DNA of 64,000 bases from an uncultured delta proteobacterium (GTDB taxonomy: Bacteria; Desulfobacterota; Desulfobulbia; Desulfobulbales; Desulfocapsaceae): contig CAIUQR010000034.1 in the NCBI GenBank assembly GCA_903901335.1, forward strand, positions 1 through 64,000, written 5' to 3'. This document shows, one piece after another, positions 2,781 to 48,439 of this stretch (its first letter is position 1; every line of letters starts with the position of its first letter). The position numbers were made by a program, and so were the translations under genes. The notes beneath the pieces are model-generated. The model ran no database searches and was not told the origin of the DNA. It saw nothing but the letters and a program-made list of their open reading frames with translations.

Positions 2781-3617
2781 TTACGCTTGATTGATCTTTT
2801 TGAAATAATCGTAGGCGGCGTTGATTTCCTTCATCTTTTCCTCGGCGACTTTCTGGAACTCGCCGCCGAGATGGCGTACCTTATCCGGGTGATAGGTCAT
2901 GCTCAGCTTCCGATAGGCCTTTTTGATGGTCTCCATGTCGGCCCCCGGCTCCAGGCCGAGGACCGCATAATACTGATCGGCGGAATCGCGGGAGGTCGCG
3001 GCCGTCCGCCGTCCGCGATACATATATTTCGCCTCGATGGTGCGCTGGTCATAGCTGGAGATTTCCAGATAACGGGCGATATTACGGGCAATCTGCAGTT
3101 CGTTTTCCGGGACGGTGGTCTTGGTATAGAGGATCTGGTAGATGAGTTCCAGCAGGATCAGCCGGGGCTCATAGGCAAAGGTGGCGCGGAATTCCTGCAG
3201 GAGCGACTCCAGAGTCACACCGGTGGAGATGGCCTCCTTGATAAGATCCTTGACCCAGAGCATCTGGGTCTGCGTGTAATGCAGGTTGTACTGGAAAAAA
3301 TGCTGGATTGTCGAGATCTCTTCCTTGGTTACCTGACCATCAATTTTGGCGATATTGATAAGAATCTGCACGAGCAGCCAGACAAAGCGATTATGGCTCT
3401 CGGTTTGTGAGGATTCGTAGGAGGAGACCTTCTTCTGGATCCAGTAGGTAACCCCCCAGAAAAGACCGATAAAAACAAGCACTCCGGCCAGTCCCGAGAA
3501 AATAAGGGTCCCCAGGAAGTTGATCAGGCCGCGGGCGCCTCCCGAGAGAAAGATGAGAAGAAGAAGGATCAGCAGGCAGCCGCCGCATCCCGGTTGTTCG
3601 CGTTTTTGGTAGTCCAT
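2781..3617 (-). CDS. Membrane-anchored TerB-like / DnaJ-domain protein (DjlA-like)
   Basis: A 278-residue protein. Residues about 16-66 form one or two membrane segments. Residues 80-190 form a helical TerB-like domain (DGQVTKEE is the typical acidic turn). Residues 215-275 are a J domain with YYAVLGLEPGAD and the catalytic HPD in MTYHPDKVRH. By family knowledge it recruits and stimulates a DnaK-type Hsp70 at the membrane, like DjlA. The gene lies between ftsY (15 bases upstream) and an aminotransferase (12 bases downstream) on the same strand, which suggests one transcript. The domain order matches DjlA-type co-chaperones; the client is unknown. Confidence 0.8.
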   Translation of the reverse strand: MDYQKREQPGCGGCLLILLLLIFLSGGARGLINFLGTLIFSGLAGVLVFIGLFWGVTYWIQKKVSSYESSQTESHNRFVWLLVQILINIAKIDGQVTKEEISTIQHFFQYNLHYTQTQMLWVKDLIKEAISTGVTLESLLQEFRATFAYEPRLILLELIYQILYTKTTVPENELQIARNIARYLEISSYDQRTIEAKYMYRGRRTAATSRDSADQYYAVLGLEPGADMETIKKAYRKLSMTYHPDKVRHLGGEFQKVAEEKMKEINAAYDYFKKINQA

Positions 3618-3632
3618 GATTCTGTGTTGGTG

Positions 3633-4787
3633 TTAAGCAGCCGGTTGGGTGGAATCGTCTGCCTTTTTCTGGAAAAGGGCCTCGATGAATTCATCGGGAT
3701 CAAAGTCACGCAGATCCTCAAGTTGTTCGCCGATACCGATAAAGCGGATCGGAATTTTCAGGTCGCGACAGATGTTGGCCACAATCCCCCCCTTGGCCGT
3801 ACCGTCGAGTTTGGTCAGGGTGATGCCGGTAACTTCCACCGCCTCATTGAATAATTTTGCCTGGGAGATGCCGTTCTGCCCGGTTGTTGCATCAATGACC
3901 AGCATGACCTCGTGGGGGGCACCCGGAAGTTGTTTGCCCATAACCCTTTTGATTTTCCGGAGCTCCTCTATCAGGTTGGTCTGGGTATGAAGGCGGCCAG
4001 CCGTGTCGACGAGAACCACATCATAGTTTTCAGCTTTGGCTGTGGCCAGGGCATCGTAGACGACGGAGGACGGGTCGGCCCCATCCTTGTGAGAGACGAC
4101 TTTTATATTATTCCGCTCTCCCCATATCTGGAGCTGGGCTACCGCTGCCGCCCTGAAGGTGTCAGCTGCAACCAGCATCACCGACTGGCCGGAAGAGAGG
4201 AACTTATGTGCGATTTTGCCGATAGTCGTGGTCTTGCCGACCCCATTGACACCGATGACCATGATCACAAAAGGACCGCTTTCGGGCATAACCAGTTCGG
4301 CTGGTCTGGTAGAATCGGTGATAAATGAGCGAATCTTTTCCTTCAGGACTTCTTTTAAGAGTGCGGGATCCGACAGCTCTTTGCGTTTGACTCTGCGCCT
4401 GGCATGATCGAGCAGTTCGGTCGTGGTGGTGACACCAAGATCTGCAGTGATAAGAAGCTCTTCCAGGTCGTCCAGAAGTTCGGTGTCGATCACCTTTTTC
4501 CCAAGAAACAGCGTATCCATCCGGTAGATTAACGAATCACGAGTCTTTGCTAAGCGCTCGGACAGACGTTTGAACATCGAGGTTGAATCCGGAACCGGCT
4601 TTGCTGTAACCGGTCCCTCAGTGACGGGACTGTCTTTCTGATCGTGTCGTTCCGGCGGTTGTTCCCGGGCTGATGGAGTTTCCGGGATGTGAGTTTCCTC
4701 TAAAGATGGTTGATCTGCAGGTAAATCCTGGATAGGGAGAGTCGGAGCTTCTTTTTTTGTAAATTTTTTCTTAAACCAACCGAGCAT
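3633..4787 (-). CDS. ftsY: Signal recognition particle receptor FtsY
   Basis: A 384-residue SRP receptor GTPase that docks SRP-ribosome complexes at the membrane for co-translational insertion. The first 75 residues are the variable acidic A domain. The N domain follows, then the GTPase: G1 GVNGVGKTT near residue 180, DTFRAAA, G3 DTAGRLHTQ, G4 TKLDGTAKGG, and the closing FIGIGEQLEDLRDFDP. Length and all motifs are normal for FtsY. It is the first gene of a minus-strand unit with the J-domain protein and an aminotransferase, divergent from the Mrp ATPase gene. Confidence 0.97.
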   Translation of the reverse strand: MLGWFKKKFTKKEAPTLPIQDLPADQPSLEETHIPETPSAREQPPERHDQKDSPVTEGPVTAKPVPDSTSMFKRLSERLAKTRDSLIYRMDTLFLGKKVIDTELLDDLEELLITADLGVTTTTELLDHARRRVKRKELSDPALLKEVLKEKIRSFITDSTRPAELVMPESGPFVIMVIGVNGVGKTTTIGKIAHKFLSSGQSVMLVAADTFRAAAVAQLQIWGERNNIKVVSHKDGADPSSVVYDALATAKAENYDVVLVDTAGRLHTQTNLIEELRKIKRVMGKQLPGAPHEVMLVIDATTGQNGISQAKLFNEAVEVTGITLTKLDGTAKGGIVANICRDLKIPIRFIGIGEQLEDLRDFDPDEFIEALFQKKADDSTQPAA

Positions 4788-6740: not shown

Positions 6741-8672
6741 ATGCGAGAAATTGTTCTAGGTACTGCGGGTCATGTCGACCATGGCAAAACGAGCCTGATT
6801 CGTGCCCTGACCGGCATCGAAACCGACCGTTTGAAGGAGGAAAAAAAACGGGGCATCACCATTGAGCTCGGATTCGCCTATCTCGATCTTCCCTGCGGCC
6901 ACAGGCTTGGTATTGTCGATGTCCCCGGCCATGAGAAATTTGTCAAGAATATGGTGGCCGGGGTAACCGGTATGGATCTTCTGGCCTTCGTTATTGCCGC
7001 CGACGAGGGGATCATGCCGCAGACCCGGGAGCATTTCGAGATCTGCAGACTGCTTGGGGTTAAACAGGGATTGGTGATCCTGACCAAGATCGATATGGTC
7101 GATGGTGACTGGCTGGAGATGGTGGAGGAGGAGGTCCGCGAGTTCTGTACAGGCAGTTTTCTGGAGGGCGCCCCGATTATCCATGTTTCTTCGACCACCG
7201 GCGAGGGTATCGATCAGGTGCGGCAGATCCTGGACGATTTTGTCAGAAAACAGAATTTTGTTGAGGCGTTCGGTCCTTTCCGGCTGCCGGTCGACCGCGT
7301 CTTTGCGATGAAAGGATTCGGGGCCGTTATCACCGGGACGTCTATTTCCGGCCGCATTGCGGTTGGTGATGAACTTCGTTTCTACCCGACGGATCTGGTC
7401 ACCAAGGTCCGTGGAATTCAGGTCCATTCCCAGGCCGTCGAAGAGGTGGAGGCCGGGCATCGCACTGCGATCAACCTGCAGGGGGTGGATACGGCCCAAA
7501 TAGAACGGGGGATGGTGGCGGCTCCTCCGGGGGCGCTCCAGCCGAACTATATGCTTGATTGCCAATTCCTCTATCTCGCCTCGAACCAGAAACCGATAAA
7601 ACACCGGACCAGAGTGCGTGTCCATCTGGGAAGTGCCGAGTTGATCGGCAGAATTTCGCTGCTTGACAGAGATGAGGTCAAACCGGGAGCGGAGGTGGGA
7701 GTCCAACTGCTTCTGGAGACCCCGGTGGCTGTATGGCCCGGTGATCGCTATGTGATCCGCAGCTATTCACCTGTGGCAACGATCGGTGGCGGGATGGTTC
7801 TCGGAAATCTGTCTCCGAAGAAACGGAGGCGGGCAACAGACCGTGATCAGGACTATAATCGGAATATTCTCGGTATCCTGCAGAACGGCAGTCTCGAAGA
7901 CAAGATCCTTTTTTTCCTGGAGGAGAACGGTACGAAAGGGCTCAATTTCGATGAACTCGCTATTCGTCTCGGGCTGTTCGGCAAGAATCTGAAGAAGATC
8001 CTGAACGAACCGATATCTTCCCGCCGGATCGTCGTGGTTGATTCGGCAAGCCAGCGCTATCTCGCCCGGTCTGTGGCCGACCGGTTTACGGAGGCGATTG
8101 TCGCTAACCTCACTGCGTATCATCGTGATAATCAACTCCAAGGCGGCCTTTCCAAAGAGGAACTGCGGTCGGGTCTGGGCAAGGGGGTTGATCAGAAGGT
8201 CTTTAATTTCTGCCTGAATGAACTGCTGAAAAAAGAAACGGTTATTCAGGAAGAATCCATGGTTCACCTTGCCACCCACAAGGTGGCGTTGAAGAGTGAT
8301 GAGAAGAAGCTGCGCAATGACCTGGAGGCCTGGTACAAGGAGAAGGGGCTGTCCACCGCCACAATCAAGGATACCATGGACCAGTTTCATGAATATCCGG
8401 AAGGCATGATCAAAGAGGTCCTGGCGCTGTTACTCCGGGATGAAAAGCTGATCAAGATCAGCGAGACGTTATATTATGATGCGGCGATGATCAATCGTCT
8501 GCAGGGTGATCTGATTGCCTTCGTCGAGCGGGAGGGCGAGATAGATGCGCCGGGCTTCAAAAATCTCTCCGGTCTGACCAGAAAGTTCTCAATCCCGATC
8601 CTGGAATACTTTGACAGGATCAAGTTAACGATCCGGGTTGGCGATAAACGGATATTGCGAAAAAAGGCGTAA
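6741..8672 (+). CDS. selB: Selenocysteine-specific elongation factor SelB
   Basis: A 643-residue translation factor that brings Sec-tRNA to UGA codons marked by a SECIS hairpin. GTPase motifs are G1 [10 protein letters not shown] at residues 9-18, [12 protein letters not shown] and TKIDMVD. EF-Tu-like domains 2-3 and an EF-Tu-unlike domain follow, and the last ~200 residues form the winged-helix repeats that bind SECIS RNA. Length is normal (about 615-650). Its presence shows that this organism decodes UGA as selenocysteine, which matters for the in-frame TGA in the SQR-like gene at 15989-17230. selA, selC and selD are not in this window. Confidence 0.96.
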
Positions 8673-15930: not shown

Positions 15931-15967
15931 AAAAGCCCCGCGGCAACTAAATTACCGCGGGGCTTTT
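15931..15967. terminator. Strong bidirectional rho-independent terminator
   Basis: AAAAGCCCCGCGG (15931-15943) pairs perfectly with CCGCGGGGCTTTT (15955-15967) across an 11-base loop. A T-run follows on both strands. It separates the convergent Trm5-like gene and the SQR-like gene, whose true stop (15989-15991) lies 22 bases away. Its position next to 15989, not 16235, agrees with the extended reading of that gene. Confidence 0.9.
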
Positions 15968-15988: not shown

Positions 15989-17230
15989 CTATTTCTTTTT
16001 GATCATATCCATGCGTTTGCCGGCAAATTGCATCGCCGGCGGACCAAGCCATGTCCCTGCCAGCAGCAGGTTATAGTAGGCCCATTTGAACAGCAATTTG
16101 GATAGATGGTTCATCTCCGTATCCTGCAGGAGCCCCATCGGGCCAATGCTGGGGAACGGGTACTGTCCGACAACCGGTTCGATGTCGTAGTTGAAGTCGA
16201 TAACGTAGGCTTTCCCGAAGCCTGATTCGATGAATCAGAGGGCATGCCCATCCGATCGCGCGTGCTGAGCCTCCCCATTGATAAAGGACATGATGTTTTC
16301 TTCCAGGATATCAGCCTGGAAATGAGCAACTGCACCGGCCTTGGAGGTCGGGACGTTGGTCCCGTCACCTAAGACCCAGACATTCGGTCTGTCTTTCGGC
16401 TGCAGGGTGTGTTTATCGACCGGAATGTATCCCATCGGATCGGAGATTCCGGAGTCGATCATAACCTGGGAGCCGAAATTCGGCGGGATTTGAACCAGCA
16501 TATCATAATTCACCTCGGTGCCGTCATAGGACTGGATCACCTTCCTTTCGCCATCAACACTGCCGAGGGCAAAATTCGGAGTAATCTTGATATTCTTCTG
16601 CTGACAGGCGGCGGTCAGCACCTGGGTTGCTACGGGTTTAGTAAAGGCGCCGGTGAGAGGAGTGACAAATTCGATCTCGACCTTGTCACGAATACCTCGC
16701 TCATGGAAGTGCCAGTCAGCAAGGAAGGCAAATTCCAACGGCGCAACCGGACACTTGATCGGCATCTCGGCGATATTGACCACCAGCTTGCCGCCTTCGA
16801 ACTGCCCCAAGGCTTTTTTCAGCGCGATGCAGTCATCATAACGGTAATATCCGTAGACATTCTTGTTCCAGGTCTCGGCCAGACCTTCAACCTCTTCAGG
16901 CCGTACATCGCAACCAGTGGACATGATCAGGATGTCGTATTGAAATTTGCCGCGTGTTGCGGTGCTTACTTCCTGCTTGTCCCAGTCCACATTGACCAAT
17001 TCTGAGATGACAAAGTCGATTCCCGGCTTGATGAATTCTCTTTTTGTTTTTCGGATTTCCTTTTCGGTGTTTATTCCGAACGGAACAAAGAGATAACCAG
17101 GCTGGTAGTCGTGGATGTTGTCCTTATCTATGATCGTGATATTCCATTCATTCCGATCAAGATGCTTTCTCATTTTGTTGGCCATCATAGTGCCGCCGCA
17201 TCCGGCACCGAGGATGACGAGTTTTTTCAT
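15989..17230 (-). CDS. SQR-like FAD flavoprotein with in-frame TGA, predicted selenoprotein
   Basis: The sulfide:quinone-oxidoreductase-like frame runs from ATG at 17230 (GAGGAGG upstream) to a TGA at 16235-16237. It continues in frame for 81 codons to TAG at 15989-15991, giving 413 residues with Sec332. N-terminal FAD motif is VILGAGCGGTMMANKM, a second FAD-contact is VWVLGDGTNVPTSKAGA near residue 287. The post-TGA part begins FIESGFGKAYVIDFNYD and ends LLAGTWLGPPAMQFAGKR, the normal C-terminus of this family, where relatives have 'CFIE' at the TGA. Cys160 (MPIKCPVAPLE) fits the other redox cysteine of SQR. It likely oxidises sulfide or a polysulfide-type thiol and passes electrons to quinone at the membrane. 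A stop-only reading would lose the membrane-binding tail. Confidence 0.85.
16207..16237 (-). promoter_or_regulatory. Candidate bacterial SECIS element with its UGA codon
   Basis: On the minus strand UGA (16237-16235) is followed after 11 bases by AGGCUU-CGGGA-AAGCCU (16223-16207): a 6-bp perfect stem with a 5-base loop. The second loop base is G, with 18 bases between it and the UGA. Published bacterial SECIS rules ask for a G in the first two loop positions and about 16-37 bases of spacing, so it fits. A second perfect hairpin, CTGATTC/GAATCAG (16222-16238), includes the UGA and overlaps the first by two bases, so the two may compete. Confidence 0.75.
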
Positions 17231-17400: not shown

Positions 17401-18321
17401 TCACACGTTTTCCCTGTGGGCCTGGACCATCGATCCGACTGCCTCAAGCATCGTGAATATTACACCAAGGGCCTCCTGCACTCTTGGATCATACAGTTTT
17501 TTAAGTGCTCCAACCGGGCCGATCCTGTTTGGTTTGCTCAGATCAATGCCGCGGATGACGGCACTTATCGCCTCGGCCTGCTCCTGAGAACAATTGAATC
17601 CCTTCATGGATTCAAGGGCTGTTCCGGCAACCTTCAACACGCCACCTATTTCACCAAAAAATTCTGTAATTCTCGGCAGCGTCAACTTGGCGATCGGTTC
17701 AATCTCATCTTTCAATTCCATTCCCGCCTTCAGCAAGGTGAGAGCGGTATTGAAGTGGTGGACATTGTCCAAGGTATTTCGTATCAGGGCGGCTATCTCG
17801 TCGGCATCGTATTGTCCGTCCAGCTGCGCGAAGAGTTCAGTGATCCTGGGGAGAATTACCTTGGCGATCGGCTCAATCTCATCTTTTAGTTCCATGCCGG
17901 ATTTCAGCATGGTGAGGGCGGTATTGAAGTGGTGGACATTACCGAGGGTATTCCGCAAGAGGGCGGCTATCTCATCGGCATCGTACTGACCTTCCAGTTC
18001 CGCAAAAAGCTCGGTCGCCTTGGGGAGAACCTGTTTGGCAATCGGCTCGAACTCGTTTTTGAGTTCCATGGCCCCCTTGACTGTAGTGAGCACAGAGTTC
18101 AATGTCTCAACATTCAGGACCAGGCTCCTCATGAAATGCACGAGATCTTCTCTCCTGTGTTCCTGATCAAGCTCGGACAGACAATCTGAGACAAGCGGAC
18201 CTGCCTGGTGGACGATCGGCATAATGTCCTGTTTCAGTTCAGCCAGAACACCAGCCTTCAATGTATTGATTTCATTGGAAAGGTTATCCAATTTTTCTAA
18301 AATCAAGGATTCATCCATCAT
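17401..18321 (-). CDS. DUF1641 protein with a tandemly repeated helical unit
   Basis: A 306-residue soluble, helix-rich protein with no signal peptide. Its C-terminal part (near residues 255-300, PVGALKKLYDPRVQEALG) is the DUF1641 region. DUF1641 proteins are found beside SQR-like flavoproteins and some formate dehydrogenases, and their role is unknown. Upstream, a unit of about 58 residues, GMELKDEIEPIAK...QYDADEIAALIRN...HHFNTALT, is present as two near-identical copies plus a diverged third. It precedes the SQR-like gene on the same strand, so it may be its partner or membrane-recruitment factor. Start ATG at 18321 follows AAGAG. Confidence 0.85.
   Translation of the reverse strand: MMDESLILEKLDNLSNEINTLKAGVLAELKQDIMPIVHQAGPLVSDCLSELDQEHRREDLVHFMRSLVLNVETLNSVLTTVKGAMELKNEFEPIAKQVLPKATELFAELEGQYDADEIAALLRNTLGNVHHFNTALTMLKSGMELKDEIEPIAKVILPRITELFAQLDGQYDADEIAALIRNTLDNVHHFNTALTLLKAGMELKDEIEPIAKLTLPRITEFFGEIGGVLKVAGTALESMKGFNCSQEQAEAISAVIRGIDLSKPNRIGPVGALKKLYDPRVQEALGVIFTMLEAVGSMVQAHRENV
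17690..18060 (-). repeat. Intragenic tandem repeat, about 174 bp unit
   Basis: Two adjacent units inside the DUF1641 gene are nearly identical in DNA as well as protein. Compare GGCGATCGGCTCAATCTCATC near 17872 with GGCGATCGGTTCAATCTCATC near 17695, and the shared 'GCGGTATTGAAGTGGTGGACATT' segment. A more diverged third copy lies at the 18000-18060 end. The DNA-level likeness points to recent duplication or gene conversion. Confidence 0.75.
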
Positions 18322-27059: not shown

Positions 27060-27248
27060 ATGCAGTCGTTCGGTATCATCTCCATTCCGGTTGTTCAGGA
27101 AGCGAAGCTATAAATTGTTTTTACAGAAAAACACAAACTATTTTTTGTAATTCTTACCGGATTCTTTTACAATTGAGTTCATGTGGATGAAAAGCAGTGT
27201 GTAGCATCCGCTGACGTAACGCAACCAAGCTGATTTTCCTTGTAAAAT
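27060..27248. other. Intergenic region upstream of the AOR cluster
   Basis: About 190 bases between divergent units. TTGTAA (27145-27150) and TTACAA (27167-27172) form an inverted repeat with a 16-base spacer, about 80 bases before the start at 27249, and could be a regulator site. No riboswitch fold was recognised. Confidence 0.3.
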
Positions 27249-27848
27249 ATGACAGAAGCATCTCCAGTTGTTGAAATCAAAGTACACGCCGACTCCATCA
27301 ACAGATATAGCACTCTCTTGCAGATGGGTGTCGATATTGAGACGCAGGGTGCCATTTCCATCGGTACCTTTTTGAACCGGCTCCCCGGATTTACAGCAGA
27401 TTATATCAACAATCGGGTACAGACCATTTTCCTGAATGGCTCGGCAATCGATGACCTTCAAAAGCCTCTTACAGGCTCCCGCCCGGTTCTTGCAATATCG
27501 GCCGCAATGCCAGGCCTGGCAGGTGCTATCTTCAGACGGAACAGCCTGCATGCTGTCTTGAGGTCTGATGGTGTCGATATTTCTGTGTCAGCCGGATCTG
27601 CGGAACCGGTTGCCGTGACTCTGAAACTCTTCAATATGATTGCACAGGAAAAAGGGGCGGATCTCCTGGCACGGGGAGTCGGCTGCACCGGGACGCAACT
27701 GGCCCTTTTCCTCACGGATAACCTGGAATTGATCTCCACCATCACCCAAGTAATTCTTGCCGGTCAGCATCTTGACCGGAGTGATTTTATAAAACATCTG
27801 CACAGGCTGGATGCCATTTTTCTGATCATCAGAAAAGATGATGTATAA
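27249..27848 (+). CDS. Unknown protein upstream of the tungsten oxidoreductase
   Basis: A 199-residue soluble protein I do not recognise. It starts with a beta-rich stretch (VVEIKVHADSINRYSTLL), has an alanine/glycine-rich centre (ISAAMPGLAGAIFRRNS) and a helical C-terminus with one cysteine (GVGCTGTQLALFL near residue 141). No signal peptide, membrane helix or metal motif is visible. It lies 134 bases before the AOR gene on the same strand and is likely co-transcribed, so a role in AOR assembly, cofactor handling or activity is plausible. The ATG at 27249 has no strong ribosome-binding site. Confidence 0.7.
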   Translation: MTEASPVVEIKVHADSINRYSTLLQMGVDIETQGAISIGTFLNRLPGFTADYINNRVQTIFLNGSAIDDLQKPLTGSRPVLAISAAMPGLAGAIFRRNSLHAVLRSDGVDISVSAGSAEPVAVTLKLFNMIAQEKGADLLARGVGCTGTQLALFLTDNLELISTITQVILAGQHLDRSDFIKHLHRLDAIFLIIRKDDV

Positions 27849-27982
27849 AAATAATTGCGACACCTGGGGACGCAAGGGCTTTCCGAATAGCATTTCTTCA
27901 GCAGGAATTTGTACAGAAAAAACTCCCAGTAATCTTAAGGAGAGCTGGAAGGGACACTTAATAAACAATAAGGAGATGCAAT

Positions 27983-48039: not shown

Positions 48040-48225
48040 AATATGACAACCGCCCAGGCAGGTCTTCTGACTTCCGGATCGTCCTTCTCCCGCGCCTTCC
48101 CGTTCGCAGCCTTCCCTGTTGAGAAGACCGGCAAACAGTGGCAAAGTGCAGGGTTTGTCCCCGGTTACAGCGGCGGGCCCGTCTTCGATTTGCACGAAGT
48201 TCCCTATTAAACTTTTAAATACCTT
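48040..48225 (-). promoter_or_regulatory. Adenosylcobalamin riboswitch
   Basis: On the minus strand the region carries TTAATAGGGAA, GTGCAAATC, GACGGGCCCGCCGCTGTAA, a GCCACTG block, and the B12 box AGTCAGAAGACCTGCC (48072-48057). These are the ordered conserved blocks of the cobalamin riboswitch. It lies about 110 bases upstream of cbiK and should shut the five-gene operon off when adenosylcobalamin is abundant. Confidence 0.95.
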
Positions 48226-48439
48226 GACAGCATTAAAAGTACCTGAGCTATGATCGCTTTCTAATACTGTTTCATGGTGACCTTGTCAAGTGGTAGAAAA
48301 TGGAATTCGTCGCGGTCGAAAAATTTTTCTTGGCATAAGTGTTAATTTATGTGCTATAATGCAGTACGGGAAGGAATTGCGGGAAATATCATCATACTGA
48401 TTGTCAGGGTGTGAAATTCTTCTTAGAGGACGGAAAGTT

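Follow-up and report, generated by a model that had tools for sequence, protein, structure and literature searches.

The window analysed here, a stretch of 64,000 nucleotides from an uncultured member of the Desulfocapsaceae (contig CAIUQR010000034.1), carries on its reverse strand an open reading frame that starts with an ATG at 17230 and is interrupted by an in-frame TGA at 16237-16235, beyond which 81 further codons follow in the same frame up to a TAG at 15991-15989 (Table 1). By the standard code translation stops at this TGA, giving 331 amino acids, while reading of the TGA as selenocysteine (Sec) gives a product of 413 residues. The coordinates and the description of this extended frame, as given in a preliminary description of the locus, were borne out, and the intrinsic terminator lies exactly where it had been placed; an Rfam search at loose thresholds returned sub-threshold matches only, located around the terminator. 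Directly upstream and on the same strand lies a gene encoding a DUF1641 protein, and the selB gene, reported earlier to share the window with the interrupted frame, is present on the opposite strand. Within the DUF1641 gene, at positions 17686-18070, a 174-bp unit is repeated in tandem 2.2 times, which corresponds to a repeated unit of 58 residues. Elsewhere in the window a cobalamin riboswitch is found at 48040-48261 on the reverse strand (121 bits), and another TGA read-through candidate at 27138-27968, also on the reverse strand, gave no Pfam match.

Table 1. Features of the window bearing on the gene with the in-frame TGA
Feature	Position	Strand	Basis
Gene for a probable Sec-containing sulfide:quinone reductase (413 aa, U332; NF049943 member)	15989..17230	-	Profile match, alignment, fold
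In-frame TGA, codon 332, almost certainly read as Sec	16235..16237	-	TGA or Cys codon in 101/101 homologous loci
Codon of Cys160, within the invariant KCPxAP motif; aligned with Cys201 of human SQOR	16751..16753	-	Alignment
Predicted SECIS apical hairpin AGGCUU-CGGGA-AAGCCU	16207..16223	-	Invariance, synonymous-site conservation
Second conserved palindrome GAUUC-AUC-GAAUC, includes part of the UGA	16224..16236	-	Conservation
Intrinsic terminator, 17-bp stem and T tail, just beyond the extended stop	15931..15967	-	
DUF1641 gene, conserved partner gene	17401..18321	-	Conserved neighbourhood
selB, Sec-specific elongation factor	6741..8672	+	TIGR00475, 391.5 bits (cutoff 242)

The encoded protein matches the NCBIfam family NF049943 over its full length with 671.5 bits, at a curated cutoff of 525, and its best relative in the PDB by sequence is human SQOR (E 3.5e-46), which is also the best fold match (TM 0.87/0.89) of a predicted model with a mean pLDDT of 92. 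Profiles, alignment and model alike reveal an FAD fold of the two-dinucleotide-binding-domain type together with the C-terminus of sulfide:quinone reductase (SQR). When aligned with human SQOR, Cys160 of the KCPVAP motif falls on the Cys of 'PVKCAGAP' and U332 on the Cys of 'DGYTSC', which are taken here as Cys201 and Cys379, respectively (the PDB chain is numbered otherwise). The likeness to human SQOR (PDB 6OI5/6OI6) hence extends to the fold and to both redox Cys positions, whereas the human enzyme, for which a trisulfide has been shown, is mitochondrial, has Cys379 where the window protein has Sec and shares with it an overall identity of 27%. Literature searches found no characterised SQR of this bacterial branch. 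The enzyme is putatively of type III, a label taken from the NCBIfam name of NF049943, and the type III SQR of Caldivirga maquilingensis, a quinone-linked prokaryotic enzyme cited in PMC9666304, has this type name in common with the window protein. Judged by its relationships in sequence and fold, the enzyme is probably a sulfide:quinone reductase.

The main alternative is that of a genuine selenoprotein with another reaction, either reducing polysulfide, sulfur or persulfides, or working with a different donor or acceptor, in partnership with the DUF1641 protein. Such a reaction would suit the presence of dsrA in the host genome, and the structural neighbours of the model include type II NADH dehydrogenases and the integrative YJLC-YJLD model 9a63; of its two proteins YJLD is the one resembling NADH dehydrogenases, and YjlC is a DUF1641 protein. 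It would also suit the persistence of the DUF1641 gene beside the enzyme gene, as this gene lies upstream in almost all loci of the first Sec clade (clade 1) having enough upstream sequence, usually at a distance of 55-260 bases, and directly downstream in distant homologs including those of Bacteroidota, the association thus spanning phyla. It is a reasonable guess that the enzyme and the DUF1641 protein form a complex. With the DUF1641 protein as query, a sequence search of the PDB gave no useful match. What weighs against a different reaction, and makes it unlikely, is the conservation of both catalytic Cys positions and of the human-SQOR-like C-terminus, together with the fact that human SQOR ranks first in the sequence as well as the fold comparison. 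Against the preferred assignment as SQR stands the occurrence of dsrA, with which the host is probably a sulfate reducer or sulfur disproportionator, so that the enzyme could run either way, including toward sulfide, or could act on polysulfide.

The nature of residue 332 was addressed with homologs gathered from two sources, 395 genomes sampled across the phylum and GTDB species genomes. Among 101 homologous loci covering this codon, 39 have TGA and 62 have TGT or TGC, with no other codon found, in agreement with the earlier claim that relatives carry Cys at the TGA. A search restricted to the same order yielded a homolog in 67 of 258 genomes, and most of the homologs that are more than 68% identical to the window protein contain a single internal TGA stop. 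The copy on the complete chromosome of Desulfosediminicola flagellatus IMCC35005 (L063), 75% identical, has its TGA at the same codon. Other cultured bacteria represented among the loci are Desulfopila aestuarii and Desulforhopalus singaporensis (L054, L055). In two further genomes of the order the gene for the Sec enzyme is in two pieces (G407:C53:21338-22524 and G409:C11:965-2163), owing to a frameshift or an assembly error. Across 35 aligned homologs the invariant positions are K159, C160, P161, A163, P164 and H329, joined by residue 332, which is always Cys or Sec, and besides Cys160 and Cys/Sec332 no other Cys is invariant in this alignment.

The hairpin following the UGA, identified by an in-house script and folding, agrees with its first description in its stem of 6 bp and the G at loop position 2; its loop starts 18 nt past the UGA, and it is invariant among relatives, silent sites included. 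Its folding energy by itself is insignificant in single-sequence folding (z -0.82), and no compensatory changes were found in 11 pairs, the two variants being G-U wobbles, because the stem hardly varies. Synonymous variation was examined in 32 close Sec loci that are 75-100% identical to the window copy, in which synonymous entropy averages approximately 1.2 bits over the 148 degenerate codons of conserved residues within the compared stretch and drops below 0.3 bits in only six of them, all of which fall on codons +3 to +9 counted from the TGA and constitute the hairpin itself. Correspondingly, pS over codons +3 to +9 amounts to 0.024 versus 0.76 downstream, and 100% of the stem cells are paired in 28 distinct sequences as compared to 18-55% when the partner is slid. 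Of the tests applied to the hairpin, it was conservation at synonymous sites that succeeded, and computationally it supports the hairpin as a SECIS element under selection. A second palindrome, which occurs in relatives as UGAUUC-AUH-GAAUCA with near-invariant codons +1, +3 and +4 and a free loop codon +2, is absent from the second Sec clade described below and is possibly part of the SECIS.

Besides selB, whose product is the sole SelB above the cutoff in the genome, the host possesses selA (L163), a tRNA-Sec with a TCA anticodon (L002) and two selD genes (L164 and L165), one with and one without an in-frame TGA, and this set of selA, selB, selC and selD constitutes a complete Sec machinery. 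The same genome encodes, separately from the SQR gene, a tRNA-Sec-like tRNA with a GCA anticodon, an 8-bp acceptor stem and U73 (L003:1501-1594; G000:C149:51970-52059), whose features match those of selC* tRNA-Cys and which looks like one; tRNAs of this type have been described for delta-proteobacteria (PMC7609411). Next to it lie genes for a histidine kinase and for redox subunits, and no SelB above the family cutoff. Reading of the UGA as Cys by this tRNA was set aside as very improbable, given that its anticodon is GCA and not UCA; the normal tRNA-Sec with TCA, selA and selD also argue against it, as does the use of TGC or TGT in Cys-using lineages, in which the hairpin is no longer kept (L142-L144).

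Still less credible is a true stop, at which the standard code would end a working protein of 331 amino acids and leave the remainder as a relic. In the 32 close loci pN/pS is 0.17 in codons +10 to +70 past the TGA as compared to 0.12 before it, which is a strong argument against a pseudogene tail and upholds the claim that the 81 codons are real coding sequence; the invariant hairpin and the recurrence of TGA in 39 loci, with Cys in all others, speak against a stop as well. A change of TGC or TGG to TGA by sequencing or assembly error, conceivable in a draft assembly of 155 contigs, is refuted by the recurrence of this TGA in many independent assemblies, including the complete D. flagellatus chromosome, and is the least probable of all. 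The UGA at codon 332 is almost certainly read as Sec, and the original proposal that an SQR-like flavoprotein carries Sec in place of a redox Cys finds strong support in Sec/Cys exchange, silent-site conservation of the SECIS, the machinery and the alignment with SQOR Cys379.

Not all loci with TGA at this codon share the same hairpin. Seven TGA loci, which share about 50% identity with the window protein, bear a hairpin of another sequence that is invariant as well, CGAGAAGG-GGUC-CCUUCUCG, and whose loop starts 26 nt past the UGA. In a tree of 55 proteins the Sec state requires five changes, counted without direction, and a single clade of all Sec rows with the nested Cys rows was rejected (AU p=0.002). 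The simplest reading of these sequences is that Sec was gained at least twice at codon 332, with two unrelated SECIS hairpins. There have probably also been three returns to Cys, represented by L142, by L143/L144 and by L025. When clade-1 Sec rows alone were taken as a clade, with exclusion of the two nested Cys rows, the AU test gave p=0.065, and hence the returns to Cys in clade 1 are likely, though not forced by this test. In L142, from a near relative, a Cys (TGC) and a Sec (TGA) copy are arranged in tandem, at 1742-2980 and 3259-4497, the Cys copy being 87% and the adjoining Sec copy 92% identical to the window protein, and in the Cys copies of L142, L143 and L144, all situated inside the Sec clade, the hairpin sequence is changed or lost. 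The Cys (TGC) homolog L025:1501-2718 has kept the stem of the second-clade SECIS with one base changed, as if it were a recent Sec-to-Cys return or carried a fossil SECIS.

Taken as a whole, the findings make it probable that hairpin-guided read-through of this gene gives an enzyme of the human-SQOR-like branch with sulfide chemistry, be it an SQR or a closely related protein that forms persulfides. The two cysteines of human SQOR, Cys-201 and Cys-379, at a distance of about 4.6 A, are joined through an additional sulfur into a trisulfide, and during the reaction Cys379-SSH gives up its outer sulfur to an acceptor, while FAD is the site to which Cys201-SS- adds (PMC12510033). Coding read-through, Sec/Cys exchange, selection on the SECIS, the machinery, homology and fold are shown computationally. 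For the incorporation of Sec, the substrate and direction of the reaction and the chemical role of selenium, the following scheme can be inferred. SelB would deliver Sec-tRNA to UGA codon 332 with the downstream hairpin as guide, and translation would then extend over the remaining 81 codons up to the genuine stop codon. In the FAD-bound product Cys160 would lie at the flavin, and Sec332 would be the outer redox residue in place of human Cys379. Sulfide would attack the sulfur-bridged Cys160-S-Sec332 cofactor, upon which Sec332 would depart with the sulfane sulfur and pass it to an acceptor, while Cys160 would reduce FAD, and the FADH2 so formed would reduce membrane quinone. As compared to Cys, Sec should speed up the attack, the transfer of the sulfur and the renewed closure of the bridge, or make these steps more reversible. 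The pairing of Cys160 with Sec332 put forward in the preliminary description finds support in the alignment of these positions with Cys201 and Cys379 of SQOR, but the plain selenylsulfide that it envisaged is probably not the resting form, and an S-S-Se arrangement is more plausible because the human pair is sulfur-bridged. By analogy with the human enzyme, chances are about even that selenium participates in such a sulfur-bridged pair with Cys160. To our knowledge, a selenium-containing trisulfide (S-S-Se) is known in no enzyme. Somewhat more tentative is the combined proposition that Sec was gained at least twice, on each occasion with its own SECIS, that Sec and Cys copies were kept together in some genomes and that S-S-Se serves as the working cofactor.

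The family to which the window gene belongs was already named in 2025-2026. NF049943 bears the name "type III sulfide quinone reductase, selenoprotein subtype"; a 2026 review (PMC13188914) lists it with the motif HxxU, credits the deep-Sep paper (PMC12013277) for the family and equates the two names. The window protein matches this family over its full length with HALU as its HxxU motif, and nothing essential differs. In its section on the family, the deep-Sep paper (PMC12013277) reports it under a generic name from Desulfosediminicola, in two of its test genomes, with no mention of SQR chemistry or of a repeated origin; the D. flagellatus copy introduced above, with its same-codon TGA, comes from this genus. 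The NF049943 profile also scores the Cys homologs L010, L012/L038, L023, L025 and L069 well above its cutoff, and its name therefore overstates Sec and would mislabel Cys enzymes. To this the present analysis contributes strong evolutionary evidence for the family, the two apparent Sec origins, the tandem Sec/Cys copies and the link with DUF1641 across phyla. Neither the two origins nor the tandem Sec/Cys pair nor the DUF1641 link appears in the consulted literature passages on the family.

Annotation by the standard code calls such genes truncated, at 331 amino acids, unless Sec is recognised. In bacteria and in the mitochondria of humans alike, sulfide:quinone reductase is central to the oxidation of sulfide, with its outer Cys picking up sulfur and passing it on. 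If Sec was indeed gained twice at this position, sometimes beside a Cys copy, these enzymes would represent a natural experiment on selenium in persulfide and polysulfide chemistry.
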